Shown here: positions 20,227 through 36,377 of the stretch, in pieces
Numbering within the stretch: the stretch's first letter is position 1
Layout: every line of letters starts with the position of its first letter
Assembly: GCF_030705605.1 (NCBI RefSeq)
Contig: NZ_JAPCKK010000034.1
Span: forward strand, 186,001 to 250,000
Direction: 5' to 3'
Length of the DNA stretch: 64,000 nt
Origin: Paenibacillus zeirhizosphaerae
Lineage (GTDB): Bacteria; Bacillota; Bacilli; Paenibacillales; Paenibacillaceae
Notes under the pieces: generated by a model
The model's database searches: none
Told to the model about the DNA's origin: nothing
What the model saw: the letters and a program-made list of their open reading frames with translations, nothing else
Position numbers and translations under genes: made by a program

Positions 20227-23200
20227 TTATATATGCAACGCGTCCAGCAGCCTATAAATCGCTGTAATTGCTTCGGCACGCGTTACGGCACGATCCGGCT
20301 GGAAGGTGCCATCCGGGTAGCCTTTCAGGATACCCGCATTCACGGCTGTAGTGATGGAAGTACGGGCCCATGACGGGATGCCGCTGGCATCCGTAAATTG
20401 GCCGCTTACTCCGCTTCCAGAGCCGCTAGTCCCACTGGTCTCGCTGGTCGCATCCAGCGCATTGGCGAGCATGACGGCCAGTTCAGCACGGGATATGAGC
20501 TTATCCGCGTTAAAGACAATGCGGCCGTTCTCACGCGAGCCTTGAATCAAGCCCGCCTCCAGAGCCGCGGCAGCCTGCTGTCTCGCCCAATCCGGAATTT
20601 GCGCGTCATCCGCAAAGGAAGTCGCGGTATCCGATGCGCTGATACCCAGAGCGTGCGTCAGGATTTTAACAAACTGAGCTCTTGTCGTTGGTTCATCCGG
20701 GTGAAAGCTTTGGTCCTCAAATCCTTGAATCGCGTTCATGCCGACCAACCGCTCCGCAAACGGCAAAGCCCAATGGCCGGTCAAATCACTGAACACCTTC
20801 GGCTCATAGCTGAATACCGCGAACTTGGCAAAATGATTCACACTGGCCGTTACGGTACCGTCGCCATTGTTAATTCCACCGATGAACACCCATCTTCCTT
20901 GCTGCTCATGATAATAGTAAACGGCAGGCTCGTTATTGGAAGACACCGCGCCCGTATCATAATGGAAGGTAAGCTTCACAGCCGTACCCAACGTATTGCC
21001 TGCATCGTTGGTGAGCCCCACGACCGGACTGATTCGTGTCATACCTGCTGCTGCAGGCACCGCCCCCTCCTCAAGCACGACGGCTTTGATTTGGCTGTCC
21101 GTATTCCACACGCCGGCTGGCACATCAATACGGATTACTCCGGCTAATTCGCCCTTGATGGCTTGCCCTGCAGGAACTTCAATCAGCTTCGATGCAGGTT
21201 GTTCGGTGTCGCCACCGGAATGGCCTTTGTCTGAATCATCCGAGTGCTCGTCATCTGAGCCGCCGTTATCGCCGGAATCTTCATCGTCGTCATCATCGGA
21301 ATCATCATTGCCGTTTCCAGGATTCTCCCCGCCTGCAAGCACATGAACTGTACGGATCACCTCTGCAGCCGGGTTGCCGGCCAGGTCGCTCACGTTATAA
21401 CGCAAGGTGTAGGTCCCGGCGGTATTTGTATCCACCATGCCGCTTACCTGCACATCGCTGGCCAGGCCAACATTATCAGCGGTATCCGCCCCGGCTTCTG
21501 TGTAGGAAGAACCTACCGTCAGATTGACCGTTGGAGTGCCTCGCAGCGTAATGACCGGAGCTGTGCGGTCAATGTTCACCTGCACCGCTTGCGTTTTTTG
21601 CAGGTTCAAGTTGTCGGTAGCACGGAACGTGAGCGTGTGCCCACCTTCATCCGAGACCTCGATCTTCTCGTCAGCCGTGTAAGGATCGTAGTCGCTGCCA
21701 TCCATAGACAGTTCAAGGGCAACCTCTGTTATAGGATCCGAGTAGACCGCATACACACTGGTCATGACGCTTTGATTCGTCCATGATCCGCTCTCATACA
21801 CCTTCCCGTCCACGGTCGTCATGGTAGCCTTCAATTCAGCAGGCGAGGTATCGCCAAAACCTTTTACAGTAACCACAAAAGTCTTGGTTACACTCACGCC
21901 TCCACGTGTCATGGTCGCCGTAAGGGTCACATCCGTATCTTCTGCCGGATAACGAACAAGCAGGCGTCCATCATGACCGATCAGCTCCGAATTGGAGCTG
22001 GCCCACTGCACGCTCACCCCGTGCTCCCCTGCCGCAGGCAGCTTCAGATCATCCACAATCGCGCTCGTATCCCCGAGGCTGAGCTGCGCAGCAGTATCCT
22101 GCACCGCCTGCTCATCGCTGTAAGGTGCCACATCTACAAAGATCGGATTGGAGTAAAACCAGAGATCCGAATAGTTGCGTTTGTTAATTTCAGTAAAACG
22201 GGTCTCATTGTCTACCGTCGTGTTTTTCACATCAATCAGCGGCTCGCCATTGCTGGTTTCACCCGCTACATCCACGCCCAGATTGGTGCCGCGCAGGCGG
22301 AAATACTGATTTTTCTGCGCTGGTCCAAGCTTGTAGGTGATCACGTTGTAGCCGTCCTCATCGGTCGTCCATTCGTTGCTCGTAAAACGTTTGAGCACTT
22401 TGGTGGTATCATTGGTGCTCTTCGTATATCCAGCAGTGCCAGGTGTGGCCAATCCGGTAACGTCACCTGCAATCAGGTCCACGTGATCCACGGCGACGGG
22501 ATCGTCGTTATGGTTGCGTTCAGGGCTTTTGAAACGGATCGTCAGCTCCATGTCGTCCCCTTGCGTCACCTTCAGGTCTCCGCCCATCTCCGCCTCTTGG
22601 CCCGCACCGGCAATGCGGAAGTCCAGCGCATTAATCAGGTCGCCGAACACGGAAAAGGATTTACCTGAACGCATGCCATCCACGACAGCATGCATGTCAG
22701 AGCCGTCCACCCAGGTGTAGTTTTTGGAATAATCCCCCGGCATGTATCCGCTGGAGTAACGACGGGTGCTATCAATGCGGAAGTGATAGTCCGAATTGGC
22801 AAAATTCCAGAACCGGCGTCCTTCCCCCAGAAGCGCATCCCACACTCCGCCGAGCTGTGCGACCATAATGTCAGTCCCGCCGTACGCCTGAGCCACTTCG
22901 CCGCGGTCCGGTGCCATCTGATTGCCGAGCATGCCCTCGAAGCCAAAAGCAATGTCCGGTGCGATCGTGTTGAAGTCGCGGATATCCTCGATTTTAAATT
23001 CCTTGGGATCTCCCTTTTTTCTGGAAGGATGGTTAATGATCATATAGCTGTTCGGATAATTGTCCTTCAACCATTGAACAGCCTTGCGGGCATCCGCTTT
23101 GGTGCTGTAGGCCCTGCTATCTGCCGCGCTCCATCTGCTCACGTCCTGCGGATCGTACAAGCTCTCGCTCCGGTTCGTAAACAAGTATTCAAAATGGCTG

Positions 23201-23688
23201 ATCGCCTCAACGATGTTCGCAGCCTTTAATTCCTCCGGCAAAATGCCCACCCCCACATGATCGTAGGTAGGCATGTCCCACTCGAAGCCGGTAAAGATCA
23301 CTTTATCCTTGTATTTCCCTCCAGCCTGAAGCTGCTCGATCTTGGGCAACTGATACAGCCCGATTCCCTTCGACAACGGAATAGGACCCCCGGGCACCGC
23401 GGCACCGGTATCATCCCGGCCCTGCATGCGCAAATGGTCGGAGATGCCTAGCCAATCCATGTTGTTCACCTCGAGGGCATGATCCAGCACATCCTCCAGG
23501 GACGTCTGGGCGTCATCGGATTGATGGGTATGAGTATGATATTCGCCCGTCATCCATTTACCGCTGCTTGGTGCCTGATTCTCTGTCCCGGGAGCAGCGT
23601 AGCCCGTTGGAACCGCAATTCCTGCTGCAAGCAAACTGCCTGCAAGGACGCTTGTCGTCATTCGTTTAAACCATGATGTAGATTTCAT
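20227..23688 (-). CDS. Secreted SLH-anchored protein with PHP-type metal-dependent hydrolase domain (1153 aa)
   Basis: Surface protein held to secondary wall polymer by three C-terminal SLH repeats (about 955-1153: VFSDLTGHWALPFAERL, FADDAQIPDWARQQAAAALEAGLI, FTDASGIPSWARTSITTAVNAGIL). Residues 1-32 are a Sec signal peptide. Residues about 45-380 resemble the PHP/CehA phosphoesterase-like fold: YHTHTH (His 51, 53, 55), LGISDHL, INHPSR and FANSDYHF, which together give the usual His/Asp metal ligands. Beta-sandwich domains follow, including a VTLRGTPTVNLTVGSSYTEAGA Ig-like repeat, then an Asp/Glu/Ser linker (about 815-850) and a ZU5-like segment. I start at ATG 23688, behind GGGAGGG. Substrate unknown. 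Confidence 0.82.
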   Translation of the reverse strand: MKSTSWFKRMTTSVLAGSLLAAGIAVPTGYAAPGTENQAPSSGKWMTGEYHTHTHQSDDAQTSLEDVLDHALEVNNMDWLGISDHLRMQGRDDTGAAVPGGPIPLSKGIGLYQLPKIEQLQAGGKYKDKVIFTGFEWDMPTYDHVGVGILPEELKAANIVEAISHFEYLFTNRSESLYDPQDVSRWSAADSRAYSTKADARKAVQWLKDNYPNSYMIINHPSRKKGDPKEFKIEDIRDFNTIAPDIAFGFEGMLGNQMAPDRGEVAQAYGGTDIMVAQLGGVWDALLGEGRRFWNFANSDYHFRIDSTRRYSSGYMPGDYSKNYTWVDGSDMHAVVDGMRSGKSFSVFGDLINALDFRIAGAGQEAEMGGDLKVTQGDDMELTIRFKSPERNHNDDPVAVDHVDLIAGDVTGLATPGTAGYTKSTNDTTKVLKRFTSNEWTTDEDGYNVITYKLGPAQKNQYFRLRGTNLGVDVAGETSNGEPLIDVKNTTVDNETRFTEINKRNYSDLWFYSNPIFVDVAPYSDEQAVQDTAAQLSLGDTSAIVDDLKLPAAGEHGVSVQWASSNSELIGHDGRLLVRYPAEDTDVTLTATMTRGGVSVTKTFVVTVKGFGDTSPAELKATMTTVDGKVYESGSWTNQSVMTSVYAVYSDPITEVALELSMDGSDYDPYTADEKIEVSDEGGHTLTFRATDNLNLQKTQAVQVNIDRTAPVITLRGTPTVNLTVGSSYTEAGADTADNVGLASDVQVSGMVDTNTAGTYTLRYNVSDLAGNPAAEVIRTVHVLAGGENPGNGNDDSDDDDDEDSGDNGGSDDEHSDDSDKGHSGGDTEQPASKLIEVPAGQAIKGELAGVIRIDVPAGVWNTDSQIKAVVLEEGAVPAAAGMTRISPVVGLTNDAGNTLGTAVKLTFHYDTGAVSSNNEPAVYYYHEQQGRWVFIGGINNGDGTVTASVNHFAKFAVFSYEPKVFSDLTGHWALPFAERLVGMNAIQGFEDQSFHPDEPTTRAQFVKILTHALGISASDTATSFADDAQIPDWARQQAAAALEAGLIQGSRENGRIVFNADKLISRAELAVMLANALDATSETSGTSGSGSGVSGQFTDASGIPSWARTSITTAVNAGILKGYPDGTFQPDRAVTRAEAITAIYRLLDALHI

Positions 23689-23745
23689 ACAAAAACATAG
23701 CCCTCCCAGTCGGCTCGAATACATCCACTTTATCAAACCGCTGTT

Positions 23746-23837
23746 AGCGCTGTGTTTTAGAAAGGTAAAATATATGACGTCTTTTGTAAAAGGATGTCGA
23801 AATATCGGAGCAGCTTCAACCGAAGCGCTGTGTTTTA
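23746..23837. repeat. 14-bp direct repeat flanking the SLH-PHP/GT2 intergenic space
   Basis: AGCGCTGTGTTTTA occurs at 23746-23759 and again at 23824-23837, the second copy within the 3' end of the GT2 gene, 78 bp apart. Confidence 0.6.
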
Positions 23838-25114
23838 TACCATTTATTGCTTTGCCGTCCCGCGATCTTGTCCAGAATGATGGACCCGAAGGCCTTCACG
23901 GAAATGATCAGGAACAACTGGGCATAGGTGAAATAAGAAAGACACGAAATTATGAAATTTTCCGTATTGCTCTGTCCAATATCCGACGCGAGCGCCAGAT
24001 TGATCTGCAGCACGTAGATAAAATACATCAAGGCCCACGCCACAACCAGATAGACATAGACATCCCCTGCGAATTGGAACGGTGTCGACACGTCTGGCAT
24101 GAACAAGTGAACAATCTGATAGACAATATTGGCGACGAAAATGATATCCGAGATCACAATTGCCAGCATGAACCAGAAATAACTAGCGGCATAATACATG
24201 ACGTGCAGCTTGATACGCCAGCTAGATTTGTTAAATAAATGATGGAAGTTGTCCATGATAACGTGAAAATTGCCTTTGGACCAACGCCCGCGCTGCTTCA
24301 TATAAACACTGAGCTTCTCTGGCTCCTGCTGATACGCCTCGGCCTGCGGAGCCAACGCAATTAACTGGCCTTTTTTCATGATTTCAAAGGATACCGCGGT
24401 ATCCTCCGTAATGGCATCTTCATCCCAGCCGCCAATTTCACGCATAAGATTTGTCTTTACGATAAAATTCGTACCCGGAATCGTGCCGATCTTGAACAGC
24501 TCCCACAGTCCGGTATGATGCACCCGCTGAATCGTAACGAGCTCCTGATTAATACATTTGGACAGGAAGTTCTGGCCCCGGTTACGAGCCTTGTTGCGGC
24601 CGAATACTGCTCCATATAAATCGGGCTTTTCCAGCGCCTTCTGTATCAGGAACTGCAGGGCGTTCCGTTCCGGCGCCGCATCGGCATCGTACACACAGAT
24701 CCAATCTCCCGTGGCCAGCTTCAGCGCATCATTCAATGCTCCCGATTTACCGCCTGTTCCGGTACGCTCCATAATCATGAAATCGCGGTGCTTATAGCTG
24801 GATCTGTTCTTCAAGTCTCTCAGCTTGTCCGCCGTCCGGTCTGTGCAGTTATCCGCGATCACAATAATCTGCACTTTATCCTCCGGATAATTCAAGCGCA
24901 GAATATGTTCCGCTGTGATCGCTATAACCAGATCTTCATTATGCGCTGGCACAAGCACCGTGACCGTAGGAAAATCGTCCATATTTTCCGGAATGACAAA
25001 CTTCGTCCGGCTCTGCCGGATCAAAAAGCGGATGGCCCCCGACATAATAACAATGGCCTCCAACACCGCAATCCAAATACTTATAATAGTTACAAGAAGT
25101 ACAAAATCAGTCAC
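23816..25114 (-). CDS. Membrane-bound family 2 glycosyltransferase, processive polysaccharide synthase type (432 aa)
   Basis: Synthase of an extracellular beta-linked polysaccharide, similar to Bacillus YdaM and cellulose or poly-GlcNAc synthases. One membrane segment precedes and about three follow the cytosolic domain. Catalytic motifs: VLVPAHNED, VIADNCTDRTA, YDADAAPE (DxD, 142-148), TEDTAVS (catalytic Asp/TED, 236-242) and QRGRW (274-278), which binds the growing chain. The GTG start at 25114 overlaps the stop of a 48-residue membrane protein, and GGGGGAG lies five bases upstream, showing translational coupling. It is the last gene of the exopolysaccharide operon starting at 27294. Confidence 0.9.
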   Translation of the reverse strand: MTDFVLLVTIISIWIAVLEAIVIMSGAIRFLIRQSRTKFVIPENMDDFPTVTVLVPAHNEDLVIAITAEHILRLNYPEDKVQIIVIADNCTDRTADKLRDLKNRSSYKHRDFMIMERTGTGGKSGALNDALKLATGDWICVYDADAAPERNALQFLIQKALEKPDLYGAVFGRNKARNRGQNFLSKCINQELVTIQRVHHTGLWELFKIGTIPGTNFIVKTNLMREIGGWDEDAITEDTAVSFEIMKKGQLIALAPQAEAYQQEPEKLSVYMKQRGRWSKGNFHVIMDNFHHLFNKSSWRIKLHVMYYAASYFWFMLAIVISDIIFVANIVYQIVHLFMPDVSTPFQFAGDVYVYLVVAWALMYFIYVLQINLALASDIGQSNTENFIISCLSYFTYAQLFLIISVKAFGSIILDKIAGRQSNKWYKTQRFG

Positions 25115-25270: not shown

Positions 25271-26173
25271 TTAAATATACTCTCCAATAAGGTCTGTCTC
25301 CGTATTCCTTTCCAAAGCGCTAATCACGCCGTCAATATGCTCATACTTGCCGAACTGTTCGGGCTGAAATACAAGAGCGCCCGAGCGGACCACCAGCTTG
25401 AGCGGCCCGCTTTTCAAATCCGTAAAAGGAACTTCCATCATCGCCTGCTTGATTCGATTCGTCAGAGATTCCAAAAATTCCGAAGGGGTCATCGGACAGA
25501 TAATGACAAAGCGGCCATTGTCTATAAAAAACTTATAATCCTCATAGCGAAGCTGCTTCTGAATGGTGTCGGACAATTCGAGGAGAAGCGATGAGTAGCC
25601 CTCTGAACCTAGAGACTCCTGAACAAGCGGCAAAAAATCAATTTTGAACATGGCGATGCAGAATCCGTACCTGTCCGGGTGCCTGCGGGCCAGATTGGAC
25701 TGTTTGACGATCGCATCGGTGAATGCTTCTTTGTTCCCCAATGTAGTATGCGGGTCAATTTGCGGATTTTTCTGCTCCAGCTCCTCCAAGCGTTCCATGA
25801 GCCGGATGCTCCGGATCAGATACGTTTTAATAAGGGCCGCCACGAGTACATTGGCAGGGATCAGCAGAATCGTAGAAATGACCAGAGCCTCCGCTGGTGC
25901 GTAGGTAGCGATCCATACCAAATAGATGACGAAAAACACAAATATACCCACCACCGACACCCCGATCGGCAGCAGCAAGCCGACAATCAGAGCTACTAGA
26001 ATCGCCGCATTAAAAAGCAAATCCAGCGCCGTATAGGTTTGGGTCAGATAAATATCCAAAAAGACAAACTGCTCCTGCAGCAGAGCAATCACAATCAACA
26101 GTATGTATCCCCATTTCACGCCCTGCAGGGGCGTCTTGCTTTTCATCTGAGTCATTCTTTCCGCTATCATCAT
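25271..26173 (-). CDS. Membrane protein with degenerate GGDEF domain and intact I-site, YdaK-like (300 aa)
   Basis: Residues about 18-120 form four or five membrane helices; residues about 135-300 are a GGDEF fold (TLGNKEAFTDAI, FCIAMFKIDFLPLVQESLG, LRYEDYKFFIDNGRFVIICP). The active-site signature is replaced by DNGRF at 218-222, so cyclase activity is not expected. The allosteric c-di-GMP-binding RxxD motif, RYED at 209-212, is kept at exactly the standard five-residue distance. This is the pattern of B. subtilis YdaK, a c-di-GMP receptor that activates exopolysaccharide synthesis. It sits between a GH8-like gene and the GT2 synthase, as ydaK does between ydaJ and ydaM. Confidence 0.85.
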   Translation of the reverse strand: MMIAERMTQMKSKTPLQGVKWGYILLIVIALLQEQFVFLDIYLTQTYTALDLLFNAAILVALIVGLLLPIGVSVVGIFVFFVIYLVWIATYAPAEALVISTILLIPANVLVAALIKTYLIRSIRLMERLEELEQKNPQIDPHTTLGNKEAFTDAIVKQSNLARRHPDRYGFCIAMFKIDFLPLVQESLGSEGYSSLLLELSDTIQKQLRYEDYKFFIDNGRFVIICPMTPSEFLESLTNRIKQAMMEVPFTDLKSGPLKLVVRSGALVFQPEQFGKYEHIDGVISALERNTETDLIGEYI

Positions 26174-26193: not shown

Positions 26194-27294
26194 TTATTGA
26201 TTTTCTTGAACTGATTCTTCTGCAATGAGAGGAAACAGATTGTCAAAGATATGCGTATCCTTGCTGAACACATACCCTCCGGGATAATCCGCATCCTGAC
26301 CGCGAAATGCCAGCATACGCTCATCCAACTGACGGGCAAATTCCGTGTCGCCTGATTTTAATGCCAGCAAAATGGCAAGAGCATAGACGGAAGGAGATTC
26401 ATAGGCGGCATCGGGCTGCCTTGTATCTCTGTTGTAGCGTCCTATGATTCGATGCCTCTGCTCGAACTCGGTCTTAAGAAACGTGACAAGCTTATCGGAG
26501 GTGCGGCCGATTTCCGCACCGTTCAAAGCGACGAGCAACTGGTCGATCAGGTTGACCGAGTCATCATAAATATAGGTTTTCTGATCGATTTGATATGATT
26601 TTGGATAAAAGAGGCCGTCATCCGGCATATCCGTCAGCAGCTTCTTATGACGCTCATACACAGACGGCTCCAGCACTCCGTTTCGGGTCATGTTCGATAA
26701 TGCGGACATGTCCAGGTAGGCGAGGCTAAGGGCAGATGACGACTCGTTGCGTGAGAAGTCATGATAATCAACAAACCATCCCTCCCTCATCGCTGATGCG
26801 ACAAGCGTTCCTGTCAGCTCATCCGCCGTCACCCGGTAGCTCTCCTCATTCCATTGATCCGCTGCCTTCCATAAGGCATCGATAATCCGGAAATCATCGC
26901 CTAGCGCATTGGTGTGCACATTCGATTTCCCGTCCTCTGCCAGCTTCCAGGCAATATAACCCTCCGGCATGATGAACCGTTCCTTTAACACGTCATAGCT
27001 GCGGTCAAACAGGGGCTTGTCCTGTCTCAGCAAAGCATACTGCATCCACAAGCCAAGCGATTCCGAGAGCGCCTCTCTTCCCGCAGCGATCTCCGGTACC
27101 GTAGACGTTCCGTCCTGAAGGTAGCTTGCTAATGTACCATTCGTATTGATCATGTGCTGTTCGATAAACTGTTCCGTGGATGAATTCGGAGATTTCCGCA
27201 TGGTTTCCTTCCCATACATCATAGAGGCAATACCGCCGCCAATAAGAAGCACTGCTAGTAGGGTAAGCGCATATCCTGAGAGTCTTTTATACAT
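26194..27294 (-). CDS. Membrane-anchored GH8-like glycoside hydrolase, YdaJ-like (366 aa)
   Basis: First gene of the exopolysaccharide operon. One N-terminal membrane anchor (MYKRLSGYALTLLAVLLIGGGIASMMYG), then an alpha/alpha-barrel-like domain: EALSESLGLWMQYALLRQDKPLFDRSYDVLKERFI resembles the catalytic Glu region of family 8 enzymes (the TxSExLGL pattern), and ALGDDFRIIDALWKAA the second acidic site. YdaJ in Bacillus has this role, trimming or releasing polysaccharide outside the cell. I place the start at ATG 27294, with AGAGGTG ahead, instead of 27321. Linkage specificity is unknown. Confidence 0.75.
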   Translation of the reverse strand: MYKRLSGYALTLLAVLLIGGGIASMMYGKETMRKSPNSSTEQFIEQHMINTNGTLASYLQDGTSTVPEIAAGREALSESLGLWMQYALLRQDKPLFDRSYDVLKERFIMPEGYIAWKLAEDGKSNVHTNALGDDFRIIDALWKAADQWNEESYRVTADELTGTLVASAMREGWFVDYHDFSRNESSSALSLAYLDMSALSNMTRNGVLEPSVYERHKKLLTDMPDDGLFYPKSYQIDQKTYIYDDSVNLIDQLLVALNGAEIGRTSDKLVTFLKTEFEQRHRIIGRYNRDTRQPDAAYESPSVYALAILLALKSGDTEFARQLDERMLAFRGQDADYPGGYVFSKDTHIFDNLFPLIAEESVQENQ

Positions 27295-27415
27295 GTAGTC
27301 ACCTCTGATGAATCTGTGCATGAGATCTTCTTTTTTTTAGGCCATACTACCTATTGAAGCACAAGTGGCAGGAATATACCATACACAATCCTTTCCTATG
27401 TCTTTCTTTTTTGTG

Positions 27416-27497: not shown

Positions 27498-27537
27498 TCT
27501 ATAGTTTAGCGGTTCACCCTCTACAAAATCTCTACAA
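27498..27537 (-). promoter_or_regulatory. TTGTAGAG direct-repeat promoter of the exopolysaccharide operon
   Basis: Two TTGTAGAG copies on the minus strand at 27530-27537 and 27519-27526 (11-bp period). The inner copy supplies a -35 (TTGTAG, 27521-27526), 17 bp from TATAGA (27498-27503). The same arrangement precedes both SLH genes at 28.7-34.9 kb. Confidence 0.65.
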
Positions 27538-27556
27538 GCCTGTCCCTAGACCCACA

Positions 27557-27592
27557 AAAGCAGCTATCCCGGCATATATGGATAGCTGCTTT
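27557..27592. terminator. Perfect 13-bp stem upstream of the orphan ABC ATPase gene
   Basis: AAAGCAGCTATCC (27557-27569) and GGATAGCTGCTTT (27580-27592) with a T-rich stretch after it on the + strand. It could terminate in either direction; no gene close by explains it. Confidence 0.6.
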
Positions 27593-27699
27593 CTGCTTCT
27601 TTGGTCTTGACCCGTTTAGTTTATTCACGGGACAGGGCATATAGGTTATATTTAAATTCATGTACACCCAATGTTGATTTCGTTTGGAGGCAAATGACA

Positions 27700-28464
27700 A
27701 TGGAACTGAACGCCCGGCATTTATCCGTCTCGTTCTCCGATGCGGATATCGTGAAGGATGTTTCCCTGAAAGTGAAAAGCAAGCAGTTCGTCGGCCTGAT
27801 CGGTCCTAACGGCTGTGGCAAATCCACCTTGCTCAAAAGCATTTATAAAGTGATCAAACCGCGTGGTGAAGTGTTCTTAGCCGATACGGACCTCATCAAG
27901 TCAAGTCCCAAGGAAGTATCCAAAAAGCTCGGTGTTGTCGGGCAGTTTAACGAGCTGAGCTTCGATTTCACCGTACGTGAGATGGTGATGATGGGCAGAA
28001 CCCCGCACAAGGGCTTGCTGGAAACCGACAATGACAAGGATTACAGCATCGTGGATGAAGCCCTGCACAAAGTAAATCTGGCAGCCTACGCGAGCCGCAG
28101 CTATAATTCTTTGTCCGGTGGCGAGAAGCAGCGGGTCATTCTGGCACGCGTGCTTGCACAGCAGCCGGAATTTCTGATTTTGGACGAACCCACCAATCAC
28201 CTGGACATCAAGTATCAACTGCAAATTCTGAATATTGTGCGCAAGTTAAACATTGGCATCCTGGCGGCGCTTCATGATCTTACATTGGCCGCAGAGTACT
28301 GCGACTACTTATATATGATGAAGAAGGGCGAAGTGATCGCGAGCGGAATTCCTGAGGAGATTTTAACGAAGGAACTGATCGGGCGAGTATTCGACGTGAA
28401 CTGCGAGATCTACCGCAATCCCGTAACCGGCGGCCTGGGAATCGCTTATTTGGAAACCTATTGA
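27700..28464 (+). CDS. Orphan iron-siderophore-type ABC transporter ATPase (254 aa)
   Basis: FecE/FhuC-like ATP-binding subunit that would energise uptake of iron-siderophore or cobalamin-type complexes. Walker A GPNGCGKST, Q-loop VGQFNELSFDFTVREMV, signature LSGGEKQR, Walker B FLILDEPTNHLD and switch His in ALHDL are all intact. GGAGG at 27686 supports ATG 27700 (nine bases) or 27694. A longer frame from TTG 27601 has no ribosome site. No binding protein or permease gene is adjacent, so it probably serves permeases encoded elsewhere, as shared ATPases of this family do. Confidence 0.85.
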   Translation: MELNARHLSVSFSDADIVKDVSLKVKSKQFVGLIGPNGCGKSTLLKSIYKVIKPRGEVFLADTDLIKSSPKEVSKKLGVVGQFNELSFDFTVREMVMMGRTPHKGLLETDNDKDYSIVDEALHKVNLAAYASRSYNSLSGGEKQRVILARVLAQQPEFLILDEPTNHLDIKYQLQILNIVRKLNIGILAALHDLTLAAEYCDYLYMMKKGEVIASGIPEEILTKELIGRVFDVNCEIYRNPVTGGLGIAYLETY

Positions 28465-28507
28465 GCAGCCCTGTGACCGAAAGCTCCCTTTCCATGCTCT
28501 GAGACGC

Positions 28508-28596
28508 TCCGGGAACGAAGCATTCCTACAATCGCTGTTGACCCTCCGAGCCAAAGGCGAGCGCTCCGCTTTTCCGGAATTGCTTCGTTCTCTCCG
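28508..28596. repeat. Imperfect long palindrome downstream of the ABC ATPase gene
   Basis: GGGAACGAAGCATTCC near 28510 and GGAATTGCTTCGTTCTC near 28577 are inverted copies with a GC-rich centre (GGCGAGCGCTCCGC). It looks like a dispersed palindromic element. Confidence 0.45.
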
Positions 28597-28649
28597 CTGC
28601 TGCGTGCACGTCCCTACCTAAACCAGTTCTTTTGGTTATTTATAGATGA

Positions 28650-28690
28650 AGAAACAACCATTGACGGCAGTTAGGCCATCGATGGTTGTT
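28650..28690 (-). terminator. Terminator hairpin of SLH gene 1
   Basis: ACAACCA (28654-28660) pairs with TGGTTGT (28683-28689); part of the sequence resembles the hairpin at 27431-27464. T-tract weak. Confidence 0.55.
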
Positions 28691-28704
28691 GTATTAATTC
28701 CTTC

Positions 28705-31677
28705 TTATTTGTCGATCAAATTGGTCAGCTTCAGCATTCTTGCGATCATTGCTGTTGCTTCCGCACGCGTAATTGTAGCTTGCGGGTTGAGCATCTTAGG
28801 ACCATTGCCTTGAATGATTCCTGCGTCAATCAACTGCGCCACATCCGCTTTGGCCCAGTTCGATACCTTCACCCCATCTTTATATTGAGCCAGTGCAGAA
28901 ATATCCTGACCTGCCGCATCCTCGGATTGGATCAAACGGTACGCGCGGGCGATCATTGCAAACCCTTGTTCTCTCGTAATTTGCTTGTCGCCGTAGAAGC
29001 TGCCGTCCTTATAACCACGCACGATATCAAATTCATCAGCAATGGCTACTGCTTTACCATACCATGCAGATGCTGGTACATCAGCAAAGCTGGATTGTGC
29101 TGCTTCTGGACGCATCAGACCCAAGCCGATCACCACGATCTCCGCGAACTCGGAACGTGTTACACTGCGGTCTGGCGCGAACGTGTTGTTCCCGTTCCCT
29201 TTCAGATCCAGTCTTGCAGCGATGTTATTAACATCCGCTTGACCCCAATGGGATCTCACATCAGCAAAATCCTGCGGGTTCCAGATAACAGAGTAGATGC
29301 CGCTGCTGCGCAGATCGTTAATTTGTGCAAAATAACGGTCGTTGATTTTCGTTACAACCGTCGGCACATGATAGACGCTGCCGTCCGGGTTCACCACCAC
29401 ACCAGTCGTAATCCGGTTTGGATCGACGCCTGCTGGCAGAGCGATATATTTCACGGCATATCCGTTCAGTTGGCCAGATCCTACAGTCTTTCCGTCATTG
29501 CTAAATGTCAGATCCAGATCCACTGGATCTACCAGCAGCTCGTAACCTGCCGCTGTTGCCTTGCTCTTCGCGGACGCAATCACGTCTTCTGCAGCACGCT
29601 TAATGTCAATACGAACTGCAATATCGCTTAGCGCAGCGTTGTTCAATTGATCAGCCACAGCAGACAGATTCATTTTTCCAACAGGCACTGGATAGATCGC
29701 CAGCAGGTTGCTGATTTCCAGGCTTGCTCCCTTATCTGCCAGTTGCTTAAGGTTTTCTGCCGTCAAACCTTCTACCTTCAGGTCGCCTTCATTCGGTGAG
29801 TGAATCGCCAAATCCTGGCCTGTACCTTCCGTTATGGCATCGGTCAGCTTGTCTTGATCTACCTTAATCGATGTTACGGTGCGACCGTCTGAAGTCGAGG
29901 TTGTGCCGGTTGCGAACGGATTTTCGTTGCCATTCAAGGTAACATCCAGATCAGCCTTCGGATTCTCCGGAGTTTCAGGTTTCTCTGGCGTTGTTGGTGG
30001 TGTTCCGCCACCTCCGCCTCCGTTATTGCCGCCGTTGTCGTCATCGTCATCATCGTCGTCGTTATCGCTGACGCTGGTTCCTCTGTAAACCGTCAGCGTA
30101 TAGTCTTTATACTGGCCGTCTTCTTCGGTTACACGAACAACAACGGTATTGGCACCGATATTCAACGCAAGATCACCGCTGAGGCTGCCGCTGGTTACTT
30201 CCTGCCAGTCACCACCATTCACCTGGATCTCGATCTTGGCATTTGGATTCAGCGTCGTTGGGGTGAACTGCATCTGATACACACTGGAGCCCACGCTCAT
30301 GGTGTAAGATGTCCGTTCCGGATCAAATGCCGGATTCAGGCTTCCTGTAGATGGAACAAGCGAAGTCAGCTTGCCGTTGGTGCTCGCTTTTTCACGAGCA
30401 ATTTCAATCGTGTACTCGCTCAAAAGGTTTCCGTTCTTGTCATAGACCCCAACGGTCACGATATTCTTGCCTTCCTCAAGCGGAAGGTTGTCCCAGTCGC
30501 CCGCAGCGACCTCTTTACCATTCAGGTTAACCCGTACCTCTGTATCTTCCGGATACTGTGCAGCCGGGTTAATGCTGATGTTGTACACATCGTTCGGTAC
30601 ATTAGCTGTGTAGTGATCTTGGTTTGGATCAAAGCCCGGAGCCAGATCGATCCCGGAGCCGTCCTCGTTCTTTAATTGCAGTTCCTTTAAGAGGGACCCT
30701 TCCAGTACGCCCACTTCCGTTGTTGCCGTGATGAAGTCACTTGTGAAATCGGAATTGTACTCAACGATAACTCCCGGATCTTTATAGGCGCTAGTGCCGC
30801 CATGCGTATTGTTTACGCCTAAGTAACGTATATCCGTATTATCGGTGTCCAGTAGAAGTGTAAGGTGGACGTAGTCGGCTCCATTAAATGTATATTTAGC
30901 CGACGACTCAAGACCTGTGTACTGATTTTTTGTTACATAAATGGTTGGAAGATTATTACCAGTGTCCCAATTGGGAGCCTTAGTTTTAGTAGCACCTATA
31001 AAGCTAATAAAGTTCCAGCCACCCGAGAAGGGAGTCTTAAATTCTTTAAACATGCTGGCGATGGCCAACATTTCCGCAGGATTACTTGCTGTCGGCTCCA
31101 CAAGATGCCCGTTATTGGCTGTTGCAGTCGTCACAGCATCCTTAAAAGTCATGCTGCTCTGTCTTGCCACGTATACAAAATAACGCCCATCATAAGCGCG
31201 CGCAGATGTTTTCCCATCACTCAACGGTGCCCCTGGCACTACGTTTACTGTGACCTTTTGCGTTTGCCCTGAATCTTGCTTAAATGTCATACTTTGAATT
31301 GCTGCCTGGATATCTTCATAGGTATTGGAGCTTGTAAAATTGAATATCCGATTGGTAGCTGTAGATTTGTCAGTGGAAATCCCGCTGATTTTTATACCAT
31401 TCGTCAACTCGGTAATACCGCTGGCAAGCGTTCCGACATCAACCGAACCGTTATTTACAGCCACGGTGAAGTATCCACCCGCTGCATGAACTGCACCTGT
31501 TCTTTCAAATTTTGCATCTGAAAGCTGATAGGTCAATTCGGATACTCGAACAGGAGTACCAGGATCAAATGTCAGTGCATCCGCTGCTCTGACTTGTGAC
31601 GGATGAAATGGCAGTATCGTCAATACCATAACGATTGCCACTAGCAAAGACAATATTCTTCGATTGTTTAATTTCAA
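28705..31677 (-). CDS. SLH-domain surface protein 1 with lectin-like N-terminus and cadherin-like domains (990 aa)
   Basis: Secreted cell-surface protein. Residues 1-31 are a signal peptide (MKLNNRRILSLLVAIVMVLTILPFHPSQVRAAD). The N-terminal half includes a segment resembling a C-type-lectin-like fold (FVYVARQSSMTFKDAVTTATANNGHLVEPTA...WNFISFIGATK) and two cadherin-like beta-sandwich domains of the PF12733 kind (LNPAFDPERTSYTMSVGSSVYQMQFTPT). An Asp8 and Gly-rich linker follows, then an alpha/beta region, then three SLH repeats from about residue 804. The TTG start at 31677 has a poor ribosome site, but an in-frame stop lies just upstream. A 300-base leader follows a TTGTAGAG-type promoter. 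Confidence 0.88.
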   Translation of the reverse strand: MKLNNRRILSLLVAIVMVLTILPFHPSQVRAADALTFDPGTPVRVSELTYQLSDAKFERTGAVHAAGGYFTVAVNNGSVDVGTLASGITELTNGIKISGISTDKSTATNRIFNFTSSNTYEDIQAAIQSMTFKQDSGQTQKVTVNVVPGAPLSDGKTSARAYDGRYFVYVARQSSMTFKDAVTTATANNGHLVEPTASNPAEMLAIASMFKEFKTPFSGGWNFISFIGATKTKAPNWDTGNNLPTIYVTKNQYTGLESSAKYTFNGADYVHLTLLLDTDNTDIRYLGVNNTHGGTSAYKDPGVIVEYNSDFTSDFITATTEVGVLEGSLLKELQLKNEDGSGIDLAPGFDPNQDHYTANVPNDVYNISINPAAQYPEDTEVRVNLNGKEVAAGDWDNLPLEEGKNIVTVGVYDKNGNLLSEYTIEIAREKASTNGKLTSLVPSTGSLNPAFDPERTSYTMSVGSSVYQMQFTPTTLNPNAKIEIQVNGGDWQEVTSGSLSGDLALNIGANTVVVRVTEEDGQYKDYTLTVYRGTSVSDNDDDDDDDDNGGNNGGGGGGTPPTTPEKPETPENPKADLDVTLNGNENPFATGTTSTSDGRTVTSIKVDQDKLTDAITEGTGQDLAIHSPNEGDLKVEGLTAENLKQLADKGASLEISNLLAIYPVPVGKMNLSAVADQLNNAALSDIAVRIDIKRAAEDVIASAKSKATAAGYELLVDPVDLDLTFSNDGKTVGSGQLNGYAVKYIALPAGVDPNRITTGVVVNPDGSVYHVPTVVTKINDRYFAQINDLRSSGIYSVIWNPQDFADVRSHWGQADVNNIAARLDLKGNGNNTFAPDRSVTRSEFAEIVVIGLGLMRPEAAQSSFADVPASAWYGKAVAIADEFDIVRGYKDGSFYGDKQITREQGFAMIARAYRLIQSEDAAGQDISALAQYKDGVKVSNWAKADVAQLIDAGIIQGNGPKMLNPQATITRAEATAMIARMLKLTNLIDK

Positions 31678-31985
31678 TTTATTCCCGCTAACGAAAGCCT
31701 ATAGGGATTCTATATTGCAGCTTCTTTCTGTTAGCAGATTCCTCCCTTTTTCATCGGATGTATTATTGTCTAATATTTGGTTTAAACCCGTTCTTTTTCC
31801 CCAATCCCTTTTCAAATATTTTGCAAGGGTAATGTTTGCTCTTTCCCCGGTCCCCCTTTACTCGTCAATTAACTTCACATAGCCTTCTTGAGCCGGGATT
31901 GCAAACAGGCTGTCACCGTTACACAATCTCCTTTTGTTGAAATCTGAGACATTCTGTTTTCGTCAAATTCCAACATCTTTAATAA

Positions 31986-32025
31986 CTCATAGTTTAACGG
32001 TCCTACCTCTACAAAATCTCAACAA
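31986..32025 (-). promoter_or_regulatory. TTGTAGAG direct-repeat promoter upstream of SLH gene 1
   Basis: TTGTTGAG (32018-32025) and TTGTAGAG (32007-32014) on the minus strand, 11-bp period; -35 TTGTAG (32009-32014), 17 bp, TATGAG (31986-31991). The surrounding 40 bp match the promoter at 27.5 kb closely. The remaining 31678-31985 holds only a long untranslated leader; I see no gene in it. Confidence 0.6.
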
Positions 32026-32118
32026 ACCGAAAAGACGCTCATAGGCAAATTCACTCTCAACAAAAGAAGCTGTCCCAAAAGAGTCCACATAACATGGGAA
32101 CATTCCAATCTCCAACAC

Positions 32119-32164
32119 AAAAGGACCTCGAATTCCACTAGATTGTGAAGATTGAGGCCCTTTT
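32119..32164 (-). terminator. Rho-independent terminator of SLH gene 2
   Basis: The minus strand reads AAAAGGGCCTCAAT, loop, ATTCGAGGTCCTTTTG. It is 13 bases past the stop codon. Confidence 0.8.
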
Positions 32165-32176
32165 GAAACAACTTGC

Positions 32177-34876
32177 TTATTTGTCGATGAAATTAGTAGT
32201 TTTAAGCAATCTTGCGATCAGTGCCGTCACTTCCGCACGTGTTACCGTGCCTTGCGGGTTGAGCACAGCACCATTGCCCTCGATGATGCCTGCCTGGATC
32301 AATTGCGCTACATCCGCTTTCGCCCAGTTTGATACCTTCGCCCCATCTTTGTATTGCGACAGTACGGAAGTATCCTGACCAGCCGCCTTCTCGGATTGGA
32401 TCAAGCGATACGCACGAGCAATGATGGCGAAGCTTTCTTCTCTCGTAATCTGCTTGTCGCCGTAGAAGTTGCCATCGTTATAACCACGCACGATATCAAA
32501 TTCATCCGCAATTGCGACTGCATTTTTATACCACGCCGATGCCGGAACATCCGGGAAGTTCATCTGCAGGGATTCCTGGCGCATCAGACCGAGACCGAGA
32601 ACCGCGATTTCCGAAAACTCGGAACGTGTTACACTGCGGTTCGGCGCGAACGTATTGTTCCCGTTGCCCTTCAGATCCAGTCTTGCCGAAATGTTGTTGA
32701 CATCCTCTTTACCCCAGTGGGTTCTCACATCAGCGAAATCCTGTGGATTCCAGATGACAGAGTAGATACCACTGCTGCGCAGATCGTTGATTTGTGCAAA
32801 ATAACGGTCGTTGATCTTCGTTACAACGGTTGGCAGGTGATATACGCTGCCGTCCGGATTCACCACGACACCTGTCGTAATGCGGTTCGGATCAACACCT
32901 TCCGGCAGAGCGATATACTTCACTGCGTAGCCGTTCAGTTGACCGGCTCTTACCGTTTGTCCGCCATTGCTAAAGGTCATATCCAGGTCGACTGGGTCAA
33001 CCAGCAGTTCATAGCCTTCTGCTGCTGCTTTGCTCTTCGCAGATGCGATGACATCTTCCGCAGCGCGTTTAATGTCGATGCGGACTGCAATGTCGCCCAG
33101 TTCAGCATTGCCCAATTGGTCAGCCACCGCAGACAGGTTGATTTTTCCGACTGGAATCGGATAAATCGCCAGCAGGTTGCTGATTTCCAGACTTGCTCCC
33201 TTATCGGACAGCTTTTTAAGTGTATCGGCCGTCAAGCCTTCTACCGTCATATCGCCTTCATTCGGCGAGTGAATTACCAAGTCCTGACCTGTACCTTGGG
33301 ATACAGCATCGGTCAGCTTGTCTTGGTCCACTTTAGCCGACGTTACAGTACGACCATTTGAAGTCAAAGTTGTGCCTGTTGCGAATGGATTTTCGTTGCC
33401 ATTCAGGGTAACGTCCAAATCAGCCTTTGGAGCTTCCGGTGTAACTGGAGCCGGTGAAGTCGTGCCACCGCCACCTCCGGTGTTGCTGTTATTGTCGTCG
33501 TCATCGTCATCATCGTCGTTGTCATCTATCACAGTGGTTCCTCTGAAAATGGTGAGCGTGTACAAAGTTTCTCTACCGTTCACCGTTACCTTCACTTGAA
33601 TCGTGTTTTTGCCTTCATTCAGTGGCAGGTCATCCGTTGCTGCACCGCTTTTCGCATCAAACCATTCGCCATCATTGAGGGAAATCTCAATCTTGGCGTT
33701 CGGATCAAGACCTGCGATCGAGTCCAGTGTTGGTGTGAGATATACGCTGTACGTTGCAGTGGTTGCAGTGTAATTCAGCACATTCTCATCAAACGCCGGA
33801 GAAAGCACAACCGGATTACCATCAGCGCCAGTCACTTCCAGGCCACCGAGCGCTTGTTTGTCCACGATGGCCAGCCCTGGGCTTACAACCGGAACGCCTG
33901 ACGGCATACCTGTCTGCGCCTTTGGCGTTACTTCAAAGAACAGATACTTGCCAATCTCCGCGTCGGTAATCGCATAGGTCAAGTCTGTTGCTCCGACAAT
34001 CGGTGTCTTATCGCTGCCGTCGCTTTTGCTGCCGCTATACCATTGATATACCGATCCGGTTACGCTTTCTACATCGCCATCTTCATCCGAGTAGGTATAA
34101 CTTCCCGTTAATGTTTGTCCTGCCTCAGTAGTGCCTGTGATGTTTACATCCGTTGCAACAGGCGGAGCTCCAGCCGTGCCAAAGAAAACATCATCCAGGA
34201 AGTTCCCAACGTTGGCACCGCCTCCAGCAGAAGATACGGCTGTGAAAGCAAAGCGGGTCGTTGCTTGACCTTCAGGCACAACATAGTAACCTGTATAGTA
34301 ACCCCACTCCGTATTTTCGTCAGACATCGTAAACGAATTCGAATACGGGCTGGTCAGTGTCGACGTTCCTGAGCCAGTTGTCTTCGTATAGGTAATATTA
34401 GCACCGCTGATTTCTGGTGCGGATAACGTCGTTTCTCCAGTCGGCTGTGTGAAATTACCCGGGGCTCCCACCTGCAGCTTCATCACATCTGTGCCTGTAT
34501 TCCCTCTGTGGGCCAAATGCCAGACCAGCACTTGACCAGGTGTTGTCTTGACATCCTGATACAAGGTTGACTCTTGATAGGCGTTCAACTCTGCATGTTG
34601 ATATCCTTCATATGCAGATACTCCCTCATTTGAATGTGACCATATTTCCATTTTGTTGTCTGTCGCAGATGTTTTCCATGCTACAGTCGGATCAGATTCG
34701 TCCACGATGTTCCAGCTACCTGGATAAGCCGGCGCTTCAAAACTGCCATTTGTAAGCAGATTGACCTCCGCAGTCGCCGCGTGAGATGCGGGGGCAAAGC
34801 CAAAGGTCTGTGCAGCAATCAGGATTGATAGCGGCAAATATAATTTCTTCTTATGATCCTTCAATTTCACAACCAC
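32177..34876 (-). CDS. SLH-domain surface protein 2 with carbohydrate-binding-like N-terminus (899 aa)
   Basis: Twin of SLH protein 1. Signal peptide (MVVKLKDHKKKLYLPLSILIAAQTFGFAPASHAAT); residues about 35-240 resemble a jelly-roll carbohydrate-binding module (NLLTNGSFEAPAYPGSWNIVD...NVGNFLDDVFFG); one cadherin-like domain (LSPAFDENVLNYTATTATYSVYLTPTLD); an Asp9 linker; then about 410 residues nearly identical to protein 1, ending in three SLH repeats. GTG 34876 follows GGAAGGGG. It reads from its own TTGTAGAG-repeat promoter about 50-100 bases upstream. The shared C-terminal half with unrelated N-terminal modules suggests duplication plus domain exchange. Confidence 0.88.
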   Translation of the reverse strand: MVVKLKDHKKKLYLPLSILIAAQTFGFAPASHAATAEVNLLTNGSFEAPAYPGSWNIVDESDPTVAWKTSATDNKMEIWSHSNEGVSAYEGYQHAELNAYQESTLYQDVKTTPGQVLVWHLAHRGNTGTDVMKLQVGAPGNFTQPTGETTLSAPEISGANITYTKTTGSGTSTLTSPYSNSFTMSDENTEWGYYTGYYVVPEGQATTRFAFTAVSSAGGGANVGNFLDDVFFGTAGAPPVATDVNITGTTEAGQTLTGSYTYSDEDGDVESVTGSVYQWYSGSKSDGSDKTPIVGATDLTYAITDAEIGKYLFFEVTPKAQTGMPSGVPVVSPGLAIVDKQALGGLEVTGADGNPVVLSPAFDENVLNYTATTATYSVYLTPTLDSIAGLDPNAKIEISLNDGEWFDAKSGAATDDLPLNEGKNTIQVKVTVNGRETLYTLTIFRGTTVIDDNDDDDDDDDNNSNTGGGGGTTSPAPVTPEAPKADLDVTLNGNENPFATGTTLTSNGRTVTSAKVDQDKLTDAVSQGTGQDLVIHSPNEGDMTVEGLTADTLKKLSDKGASLEISNLLAIYPIPVGKINLSAVADQLGNAELGDIAVRIDIKRAAEDVIASAKSKAAAEGYELLVDPVDLDMTFSNGGQTVRAGQLNGYAVKYIALPEGVDPNRITTGVVVNPDGSVYHLPTVVTKINDRYFAQINDLRSSGIYSVIWNPQDFADVRTHWGKEDVNNISARLDLKGNGNNTFAPNRSVTRSEFSEIAVLGLGLMRQESLQMNFPDVPASAWYKNAVAIADEFDIVRGYNDGNFYGDKQITREESFAIIARAYRLIQSEKAAGQDTSVLSQYKDGAKVSNWAKADVAQLIQAGIIEGNGAVLNPQGTVTRAEVTALIARLLKTTNFIDK

Positions 34877-34928
34877 AGTTTCTGCCCCTTCCTAAAACAC
34901 TTTCGTCATTTTTCTACATTTTCCGTAC

Positions 34929-34979
34929 TTCATATTCTAACAATCTAATCTCTACAAAAACTCTACAAAATCTCTACAA
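34929..34979 (-). promoter_or_regulatory. Triple TTGTAGAG repeat promoter of SLH gene 2
   Basis: Three perfect TTGTAGAG copies on the minus strand at 34972-34979, 34961-34968 and 34950-34957, each exactly 11 bp apart. -35 TTGTAG (34952-34957), 17 bp, TATGAA (34929-34934). Confidence 0.7.
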
Positions 34980-35107: not shown

Positions 35108-35129
35108 TTCGTTAAGGCTGGTGATTGTC

Positions 35130-35594
35130 ATGCCTCTTCAACTGAATGATGCTCAGGCCACTTCACTCAAGTTATTCGTTGTTCTCTCCAAAGCCTACAA
35201 GGCTATTTCAGAACAGGTTATAAAGGATATAAAACAATACGGTTTATCCCCTTCCGAATTTATGATTCTGGAGGTGCTGTATACGAAACGGCGCATCCCC
35301 CTGCAGCAAATTGGGGGAAAAATATTAGTGACAAGCGGCAGCATTACCTACAATATCGACAAGCTGGAGAAGAAGCTGCTGTTAAGACGCGTTCCTTGCC
35401 GGGAAGACCGCAGAGTGATTTATGCCGAAATTACCGACGCCGGGGACGAGTTATTCAACCGGATCTTCCCGGAACATGCGGAAATAGTTCACCATTTAAT
35501 GAGCGGCGTGCCCCAGGATGAGCAGGAGGCGGCGATTGCACTGCTCAAAAAATTAGGAAAAAGCGTGAAGTCAGATACGAACAAAGGAGGCTGA
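35130..35594 (+). CDS. MarR-family transcriptional regulator (154 aa)
   Basis: Winged-helix dimeric repressor. The DNA-binding core is LSPSEFMILEVLYTKRRIPLQQIGGKILVTSGSITYNIDKLEKKLLLRRVPCREDRRVIYAEITDAGDELFNRIFPEH, matching the MarR wing (REDRRVIYAEIT). It resembles MhqR/YkvE-type regulators that respond to quinones, but that identity is only suggested. ATG 35130 is used; a GTG at 35121 is an alternative. The stop is six bases from the pirin start, so the two genes form an operon under a strong promoter. Confidence 0.87.
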   Translation: MPLQLNDAQATSLKLFVVLSKAYKAISEQVIKDIKQYGLSPSEFMILEVLYTKRRIPLQQIGGKILVTSGSITYNIDKLEKKLLLRRVPCREDRRVIYAEITDAGDELFNRIFPEHAEIVHHLMSGVPQDEQEAAIALLKKLGKSVKSDTNKGG

Positions 35595-35600
35595 TGATTG

Positions 35601-36377
35601 ATGCAACCAAGAGTGTACACCCCTGCCATGCAGGGAAGCGGCGAATTTGACGGCGGGAAAATTAAAGAGCAAAAGCCGATCGGCTTTTCGGGCGAAGGGT
35701 CGGTTATCAAACGTGTAGGTCCCCTGTTCTATTGGGCATGGGGAGCTTCAAGCGCGGAAGCCGTGATCGGCCTGCATCCTCATGAAGGCTTCGAGATTAT
35801 GACCTATATCGTACAAGGCGAATCCTCTCACAAAGATACCCTGGGAACGGACAGCGCAGTGGGCGCAGGCGGCGTTCAGGTCATGCAAACCGGCTCGGGA
35901 GTCAGTCATCGGGAACAGCTCAGTGCGGATACGGAGTTTTTTCAAATCTGGTTTGAGCCTTATTTGGCAGAAGCGATGCTGAGAAAGCCCACATATCACC
36001 AGTATGAACATGAAGATTTTTCGATAGAAAGCCACGAAGCCGGCTATAGCGTGAAAACGGTGATTGGCAGCGGTTCCCCGATCAACCTCGTGGCCGATGC
36101 CGAAATGTGGGATGTTGAAATCAGCGGCGGAGCCCGATATGGGCATACCGTGCCGGGCGGCTATACTTTGACAGCTTTGGCTATTCGCGGGGCTGGAGTA
36201 TGGGGAGAAGCCGACGTATCGAAGCGACAGAGCCCTTTTCGCCATAAGGATTTCATTGTAGGATATGCGGATTCAGATACATCAGTTGAAATTACAAATC
36301 CGCATGATGACATCCTGCGGCTGATTCTGATCAAGGTGCCGACAAACGTAAGCTACCCACTTCAACCCAAACGGTAA
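35601..36377 (+). CDS. Pirin-family bicupin protein (258 aa)
   Basis: Pirins are iron-containing bicupins, some with quercetin 2,3-dioxygenase activity. The N-terminal cupin has LHPHEGFEIMTYIVQGESSHKDTLG and MQTGSGVSHREQLS, supplying the His-His-His-Glu metal site; FQIWFEP follows as in other pirins. The C-terminal cupin (INLVADAEMWDVEISGGARYGHTVPGGYTLTALAIRG) lacks a metal site, as usual. GGAGG lies ten bases before ATG 35601. Co-transcription with a MarR regulator points to induction by aromatic or oxidative signals, which is inference. Confidence 0.88.
   Translation: MQPRVYTPAMQGSGEFDGGKIKEQKPIGFSGEGSVIKRVGPLFYWAWGASSAEAVIGLHPHEGFEIMTYIVQGESSHKDTLGTDSAVGAGGVQVMQTGSGVSHREQLSADTEFFQIWFEPYLAEAMLRKPTYHQYEHEDFSIESHEAGYSVKTVIGSGSPINLVADAEMWDVEISGGARYGHTVPGGYTLTALAIRGAGVWGEADVSKRQSPFRHKDFIVGYADSDTSVEITNPHDDILRLILIKVPTNVSYPLQPKR

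Follow-up and report, generated by a model that had tools for sequence, protein, structure and literature searches.

Three direct repeats lie on the minus strand of a 64,000-nucleotide stretch of Paenibacillus zeirhizosphaerae DNA (assembly GCF_030705605.1, contig NZ_JAPCKK010000034.1, positions 186,001 to 250,000), which was analysed at its full length and is called the window below. They precede a polysaccharide operon and two genes for SLH proteins, and they belong to a promoter box that is found in many relatives of this bacterium. A type of regulator so far known mainly from antibiotic-making Streptomyces probably binds this box. The repeats sit where the initial annotation of this DNA had placed them, as two copies at 27537-27519, two at 32025-32007 and three at 34979-34950, with a period of 11 bp in each case. 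The boxes and the genes behind them are as follows.

27503-27537, minus strand: box 1, TTGTAGAG-N3-TTGTAGAG (27537-27519) with the -10 hexamer TAAACT (27508-27503), 5' of the polysaccharide operon
31991-32025, minus strand: box 2, TTGTTGAG (outer copy)-N3-TTGTAGAG (32025-32007) with the -10 hexamer TAAACT (31996-31991), 5' of SLH gene 1
34934-34979, minus strand: box 3, three copies (34979-34950) with the -10 hexamer TAGAAT (34939-34934), 5' of SLH gene 2
26194-27321, minus strand: gene 1 of the polysaccharide operon, 375 amino acids, without a Pfam match
25271-26173, minus strand: gene 2 of the polysaccharide operon, 300 amino acids, GGDEF domain
23816-25114, minus strand: family 2 glycosyltransferase of the polysaccharide operon
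20227-23736, minus strand: SLH protein of 1169 amino acids, by its position (80-bp gap) possibly the last gene of the polysaccharide operon
28705-31677, minus strand: SLH gene 1, 990 amino acids, SLH and cadherin-like domains
32177-34876, minus strand: SLH gene 2, 899 amino acids, SLH and cadherin-like domains

The upstream region of SLH gene 2 is shared with a divergent MarR-family regulator and a pirin gene (35121-36377, plus strand). Rfam matches in the window consist of one tmRNA and one tRNA only.

A repeat box in place of the -35 element

When up to three mismatches are allowed, the window contains four paired-octamer matches, against 0.31 expected and a maximum of two in 100 shuffles, so that the repeats are above chance here. 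In the source genome as a whole (4.8 Mb, 94% complete), five sites are found with at most one mismatch (four exact, one with a single mismatch) and none in the reversed control. Four of the five fall in the window; the fifth, on contig C28, precedes a gene whose product is a secreted protein with an LPXTG-type anchor at its end. Across the whole genome at up to three mismatches there is no enrichment (28 matches versus 40 in the control). The literal pair, with one mismatch, has 25 sites in 75 genomes of the genus versus 23 in the control (control columns summed by hand), and the TTGTAGAG pair was dropped as a genus-wide marker on this count. It is the rest of the promoter, not the literal octamer pair alone, that sets the real sites apart.

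As judged by eye, all five source-genome sites and 9 of 20 other sites from the genus precede surface proteins with a signal peptide or, at one source-genome site, the polysaccharide operon. Locus L033 has a promoter resembling those of the surface genes, with no such gene within the 1.5 kb fetched. The surface-gene sites carry a TANNNT hexamer (TAAACT, TAGAAT, TATAAT or TACGAT) 10 bp past the second octamer, or 9 bp past it in one group. At three loci (L037, L044 and L045), one adhesin-like gene has two boxes on its 5' side, spaced by about 520 bp, and tandem promoters are possible there.

This layout is not the one given in the initial annotation, which took TTGTAG, formed by the copy nearest the gene, as a -35 element with a TAT-type -10 (TATAGA, TATGAG or TATGAA) 17 bp away. 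If that were correct, these could be ordinary sigma-A promoters and the repeat a by-product. The spelling is indeed present at the three window sites; it is absent from the C28 promoter and from several relatives. Among 14 distinct strict sites, identified by eye as surface-gene promoters, TANNNT stands at offset 10 in nine and at offset 9 in three, and TAT occurs at the proposed -10 position in just four. To avoid circularity, a wider set was picked on nothing but its repeats, at loci for which the -10 had played no part in the choice. Of these 32 non-redundant intergenic sites, 25 have a TANNNT that begins at offset 10 from the second copy, and every other offset between 0 and 29 has it in at most three. 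As the hexamer is held at this fixed offset, the box stands in place of a -35 element, and the TAT-type -10 is not the conserved element. The TTGTAG assignment was ruled out by these two sets of counts, and an ordinary sigma-A promoter with an incidental repeat is hardly credible.

The general form of the promoter is TTGTNNAG-N3-TTGTNNAG-N10-TANNNT. Profile models built from 13 and from 27 sites were used to find further sites in the genus. The common spellings outside the window are TTGTTCAG and TTGTTTAG, and since these are frequent elsewhere, the TTGTAGAG of the window is a local variant of TTGTNNAG. A narrower pattern, TTGTWNAGNWWTTGTWNAG-N10-TANNNT, has 313 matches in 169 of 394 genomes of the family, while its reversed control has none. 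In the scan of the genome and its relatives that the initial annotation had proposed, it is thus the generalised box taken together with its -10, and not the literal pair by itself, that stands out across the genus. In the named genome collection, at least 118 stretches match the pattern when its middle is fixed as AWT. Among the matches listed, 80 carry a title; by our own count, 66 of these are from Bacillales, four from Clostridia, five from unplaced or Bacillota metagenome-assembled genomes and five from other phyla. The Bacillales genera among them include Paenibacillus, Cohnella, Saccharibacillus, Brevibacillus, Lysinibacillus, Cytobacillus and Gracilibacillus, besides others. The five non-Firmicutes loci look like chance matches. 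It is close to certain that the box marks a real, conserved promoter class in Paenibacillus and many of its relatives, as had been suggested from the three window promoters.

A near-identical stretch around TTGTTTTGGCATTGTAGAG, for which Rfam has no match, is present at three places of the source genome (L009, L026 and L027, on contigs C6, C33 and C34) and at locus L045 of a relative.

Genes downstream of the box

The 118 loci listed contain 121 sites. A same-strand gene begins within 850 bp downstream of 88 of them; the nine sites that lie in open reading frames (ORFs) of at least 120 amino acids and the 24 without a usable gene are omitted from the count of targets. Among 69 non-redundant downstream proteins (one of the original 70 was omitted because of a run of undetermined residues), the Pfam families found are SpaA (7), Collagen_bind (6), SLH, GGDEF, Response_reg and Big_8 (5 each), LysM (3) and MHYT (2). 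In a background of 70 other genes from the same loci, the proteins of which are shorter in total than the downstream ones, Response_reg has two members among the 25 families shown, and each of the other seven has at most one. The sites sampled thus precede SLH proteins, collagen-binding and SpaA adhesins, polysaccharide genes and enzymes of cyclic di-GMP (c-di-GMP) metabolism. Further boxed targets named by eye are sortase-like genes, an HD-GYP protein and polysaccharide synthases, and SecA is found among them both by eye and by Pfam.

The source-genome targets are the polysaccharide operon, SLH genes 1 and 2, the C28 gene for the LPXTG adhesin and a second adhesin-like gene on the same contig (C28:365.7k), 17 kb from the first. 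The last of these has its -10 one base further out and is partial in the stretch analysed. At L122 and L124, genes that look sortase-like by eye lie behind the boxed gene or directly behind the box, an arrangement that fits co-regulation with LPXTG adhesins.

Conservation at orthologues is uneven. For relatives of SLH gene 2, the box is found upstream in five of five other genomes, although four of these relatives are similar over about 160 amino acids only. Among 20 stretches upstream of relatives of the adhesin, ten have a strong box (score of at least 21.6, against a highest shuffle score of 16.2; two of these sites are identical or almost identical to a training site), two a degenerate one (13.0) and eight none. 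The eight include L062, the first of two tandem copies with a box before the second; L064, where the site is just outside the stretch; and L070, the source genome's own copy on contig C11. For the first gene of the polysaccharide operon, the box is found in none of the 20 upstream regions examined out of 43 genus orthologues. A comparable five-gene operon in Lysinibacillus piscis does have the box; its first gene is 33% identical to that of the window operon, its glycosyltransferase 32%, and its second gene weakly similar. With the 20 examined genus orthologues boxless and the L. piscis operon boxed, the polysaccharide operon seems, as judged from these sequences, to have been recruited to the box separately. 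The expectation that the sites would cluster at envelope genes and be conserved at orthologues is therefore borne out for SLH gene 2 and, often, for the adhesin relatives, but not for the 20 genus orthologues examined of the polysaccharide operon.

The adhesin locus on C28 has a second kind of control element. In the source genome and in four others (G013, G017, G019 and G042), the adhesin gene with the box is preceded, at a distance of about 1 kb, by tandem c-di-GMP-I riboswitches. They are also present at the same locus of G010, where the box is degenerate.

L001 2385-2619 (source genome, contig C28): tandem c-di-GMP-I riboswitches, found also at L095, L104, L105, L109 and L342

In the source genome and in G010, the two loci viewed, the riboswitches precede a gene that appears transglutaminase-like by eye. 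No c-di-GMP-I riboswitch was found in 18 further named loci that were scanned.

Two other settings of the box were noticed. At ten loci (L135, L137, L189, L204, L205, L216, L230, L258, L263 and L292), it lies 5' of a small, conserved ORF encoding about 60 amino acids, which is near uppP where the surroundings were viewed and sometimes behind a lysR-type gene (genes named by eye). In 6 of 13 genus genomes (L201, L206, L207, L208, L211 and L217), the interval between ftsZ and spoIIGA contains a box whose -10 is conserved. The box is directed against both genes, towards the ftsZ terminator, and a small antisense RNA is possible.

A candidate receiver-SARP regulator

A recurrent neighbour in 8-kb box loci is a response regulator of about 370 amino acids composed of a receiver domain, Trans_reg_C and BTAD, often adjoining a hybrid kinase of the 7TMR-DISM type that is some 1,000 amino acids long. 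Such a regulator gene lies within 2 kb of a box in Niallia, Schinkia and Brevibacillus, and in Schinkia and Niallia a 7TMR hybrid kinase, identified by Pfam, is adjacent to it. The source genome has two of these regulators, both outside the window.

C11:645289-646440: regulator 1, with an adhesin gene and a 7TMR hybrid kinase (Pfam) nearby
C4:32225-33334: regulator 2, 31% identical to regulator 1, adjoining a gene of 1028 amino acids the start of which resembles a 7TMR hybrid kinase by eye

The receiver domain has the acidic pocket and the phospho-acceptor of a response regulator: D7 D8, D53, T81 and K101 are among the invariant columns of seven regulators. In the C11 protein, Pfam detects BTAD at 5.5e-9 and Trans_reg_C at 1.6e-4. 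An OmpR-type winged helix followed by BTAD is the architecture of the SARPs (AfsR, ActII-ORF4 and DnrI, and EmbR of Mycobacterium), and three approaches point to it here: Pfam on the source genome's own regulator, a sequence profile and a fold comparison. The profile, made from the C-terminal parts of eight regulators including the source genome's own, matches EmbR (1.2e-9) and AfsR (5.5e-8); it also matches TPR proteins, via the BTAD helices. In Foldseek, the C-terminal part of a fold model predicted for the Niallia regulator (mean pLDDT 84) matches AfsR (8hvr, 8k60) and EmbR (2ff4) at ranks 5-8, with a TM score of 0.61-0.65 by target for AfsR.

The geometry of the box agrees with this if the receiver-SARP protein binds it, since SARPs recognise 11-bp direct repeats that overlap the -35 at a fixed distance from the -10. 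In the available excerpt of a study of AfsR (PMC10936776), the site consists of two 11-bp repeats overlapping the -35, in each of which the first 8 bp are contacted and the last 3 are not; it is centred at -29.5, and the activator holds sigma region 4. The same general rule on repeat geometry is given in an excerpt of a SARP review (PMC10972967). The box has a corresponding layout of 8 conserved and 3 free bp per repeat, and its centre would be near -30 if transcription started 6-7 nt after the hexamer.

Association between regulator and box was examined in the same 394 family genomes (E<=1e-25, with at most four candidates scored per genome). The regulator was found in 336 of them. An exact box is present in 167 of these 336 versus 2 of the 58 genomes lacking the regulator (Fisher p=6e-13). 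The association is also seen within the genus clusters g1, g2, g3 and g16 (p=1e-4, 0.003, 0.0035 and 0.027). Moreover, the two are physically linked: in 21 of the 30 best regulator loci, a box lies within 1.5 kb of the regulator gene, and all 28 of the 28 linked sites share the strand of the regulator gene and lie 52-942 nt beyond its stop codon. In L318 and in G111, the box is 55 nt 5' of the regulator gene itself.

The initial annotation had proposed an activator of the ordinary OmpR/PhoB type, and the one-turn direct repeat at the -35 region does resemble the site of such an activator. The boxes of Escherichia coli PhoB, enterobacterial PhoP and the Gram-positive CiaR and SpaR are one-turn direct repeats at, or in place of, the -35, and OmpR-type regulators are generally known to bind 11-bp-spaced repeats near it. 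Unlike the candidate, PhoB, PhoP, CiaR and SpaR consist of a receiver and a winged helix and are not known to carry BTAD. An ordinary regulator of this kind could own the box if the receiver-SARP gene were linked to it merely via shared adhesin clusters. The source genome even offers a suitable OmpR-type regulator/kinase pair 108 bp behind the C28 adhesin gene (L029 3007-4772, minus strand). However, none of the 30 best-scoring ordinary OmpR-type loci (from five genomes) has a box. The C28 regulator itself is found in 21 of 75 genus genomes (E<=1e-60), is missing from seven that bear the box (G007, G017, G018, G023, G046, G060 and G061), and does not adjoin the adhesin in G010 or G042. On these grounds the C28 pair was rejected as the owner. 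Autoregulation among ordinary OmpR genes was likewise set aside, the C28 gene being the only one within 5 kb of a box among the rows listed (five genomes, by eye). Ownership by an ordinary OmpR/PhoB-type regulator is thus unlikely.

A drifted site of WalR, PhoP, Spo0A or CodY is very improbable. The WalR box is TGTWAH-N5-TGTWAH and the Firmicutes Pho box consists of TTTACA-type repeats. In favour of such a reading, the spacing of the present box equals that of WalR and PhoP boxes (TGTNNA-N5-TGTNNA), and one conserved site is found between ftsZ and spoIIGA. Yet most sites have C, T or G as the fifth base of the hexamer, in agreement with the earlier statement that this is not a WalR box. The source genome's own Pho-type box has the sequence TTTACA on the strand of the gene behind it, putatively DUF47 as judged by eye, and is distinct from the box described here. 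At spoIIGA, a 0A box of classical appearance has been retained next to the present box as a separate element. Finally, WalR, PhoP, Spo0A and CodY are, as far as is known, near-universal in the group, whereas the box is absent from 56 of the 58 genomes that lack the receiver-SARP regulator.

Several observations weigh against assigning the box to the receiver-SARP system. No box lies beside either source-genome regulator (in the interval between the C11 regulator and the adhesin, or in the C4 stretch), and the Trans_reg_C match of the C11 protein is below the Pfam cut-off. The fold model was made for the Niallia protein instead of the source-genome one, and its Foldseek ranks 1-4 by E-value are ordinary OmpR-type regulators, which share the receiver and winged helix with it and superpose poorly (root-mean-square deviation 13-20 A). 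The regulator at L318 scores the receiver domain only in Pfam. Half of the regulator-bearing genomes have no exact box; the co-occurrence is uninformative in g8, the largest genus cluster (p=0.79), and in g10, and not significant in g9, g15 and g17. The genomes of one cluster are close relatives of each other, as are several of the 30 regulator loci, so that they do not count as independent cases. Many genomes carry two to four such regulators, which makes the pairing of box and paralogue ambiguous. Taking these together with the co-occurrence, the linkage, the fold and profile matches and the AfsR-like geometry, we consider it likely that the receiver-SARP system with its 7TMR-DISM hybrid kinase owns the box. 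A single regulator for the exopolysaccharide and SLH genes, as envisaged in the initial annotation, is plausible, and it is likely to be of this type rather than of the ordinary OmpR/PhoB type.

Proposed mechanism and its meaning

In the model that we favour, the repeats would be the binding box of a receiver-SARP two-component activator. The 7TMR-DISM hybrid kinase would transfer phosphate to the receiver domain, and two protomers would sit side by side on two 11-bp units, each made of the eight conserved positions TTGTNNAG and three free bp. With 7 bp between the last base of its second 11-bp unit and TANNNT, a downstream -10 of the sigma-A type, the box occupies the place of the -35. From there, the activator may keep both RNA polymerase and sigma region 4 in position on a promoter that lacks a proper -35, as AfsR does in Streptomyces; we infer this sigma adaptation, like the binding and the phosphorylation, from the lines of evidence above. 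The source-genome genes activated through the box would be the polysaccharide operon, the two SLH genes, the C28 LPXTG adhesin and the second adhesin-like gene, which together would form a regulon of surface adhesion and sessility.

Such a system would differ from known SARPs in several respects. Its regulator has a phospho-receiver domain in front and a 7TMR-DISM hybrid kinase, and its hosts are Bacillota. Unlike those of Streptomyces SARPs, the boxes precede surface-adhesion genes, not antibiotic clusters, and the box sequence is different. We take the window's polysaccharide operon to be putatively of the ydaJ type, for its likeness to the exopolysaccharide operon ydaJKLMN of Bacillus subtilis. 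The two would share the order of first gene, GGDEF-type gene and family 2 glycosyltransferase; the window operon has no gene between the last two, and an SLH gene possibly stands in last place. An excerpt of one account of the B. subtilis operon (PMC13274460) names SigB control and no SARP.

The open-access literature that was searched (subscription journals lie outside it) contained no account of how Paenibacillus and its relatives from soil and plants jointly switch on matrix polysaccharide, adhesins and S-layer-type proteins, and a search of it for the motif listed matches on unrelated subjects, as judged from the title and the start of the abstract. As far as this literature shows, the box, if correctly interpreted, would represent a SARP-type promoter class not previously described in Bacillota. 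It would also provide a transcriptional partner to the tandem c-di-GMP riboswitches beside one family of adhesin genes. As there is a searchable box, and a candidate has been named for both the regulator and the kinase, this control can be tested directly. We lean, by a modest degree, towards a Bacillales-wide sessility regulon in which a two-component system made up of a receiver-SARP regulator and a 7TM hybrid kinase, acting by sigma adaptation, would co-ordinate SLH proteins, adhesins and sortases, exopolysaccharide machines and c-di-GMP enzymes. If so, promoter activation by SARPs, which has been studied in antibiotic producers, would serve surface attachment in another phylum.

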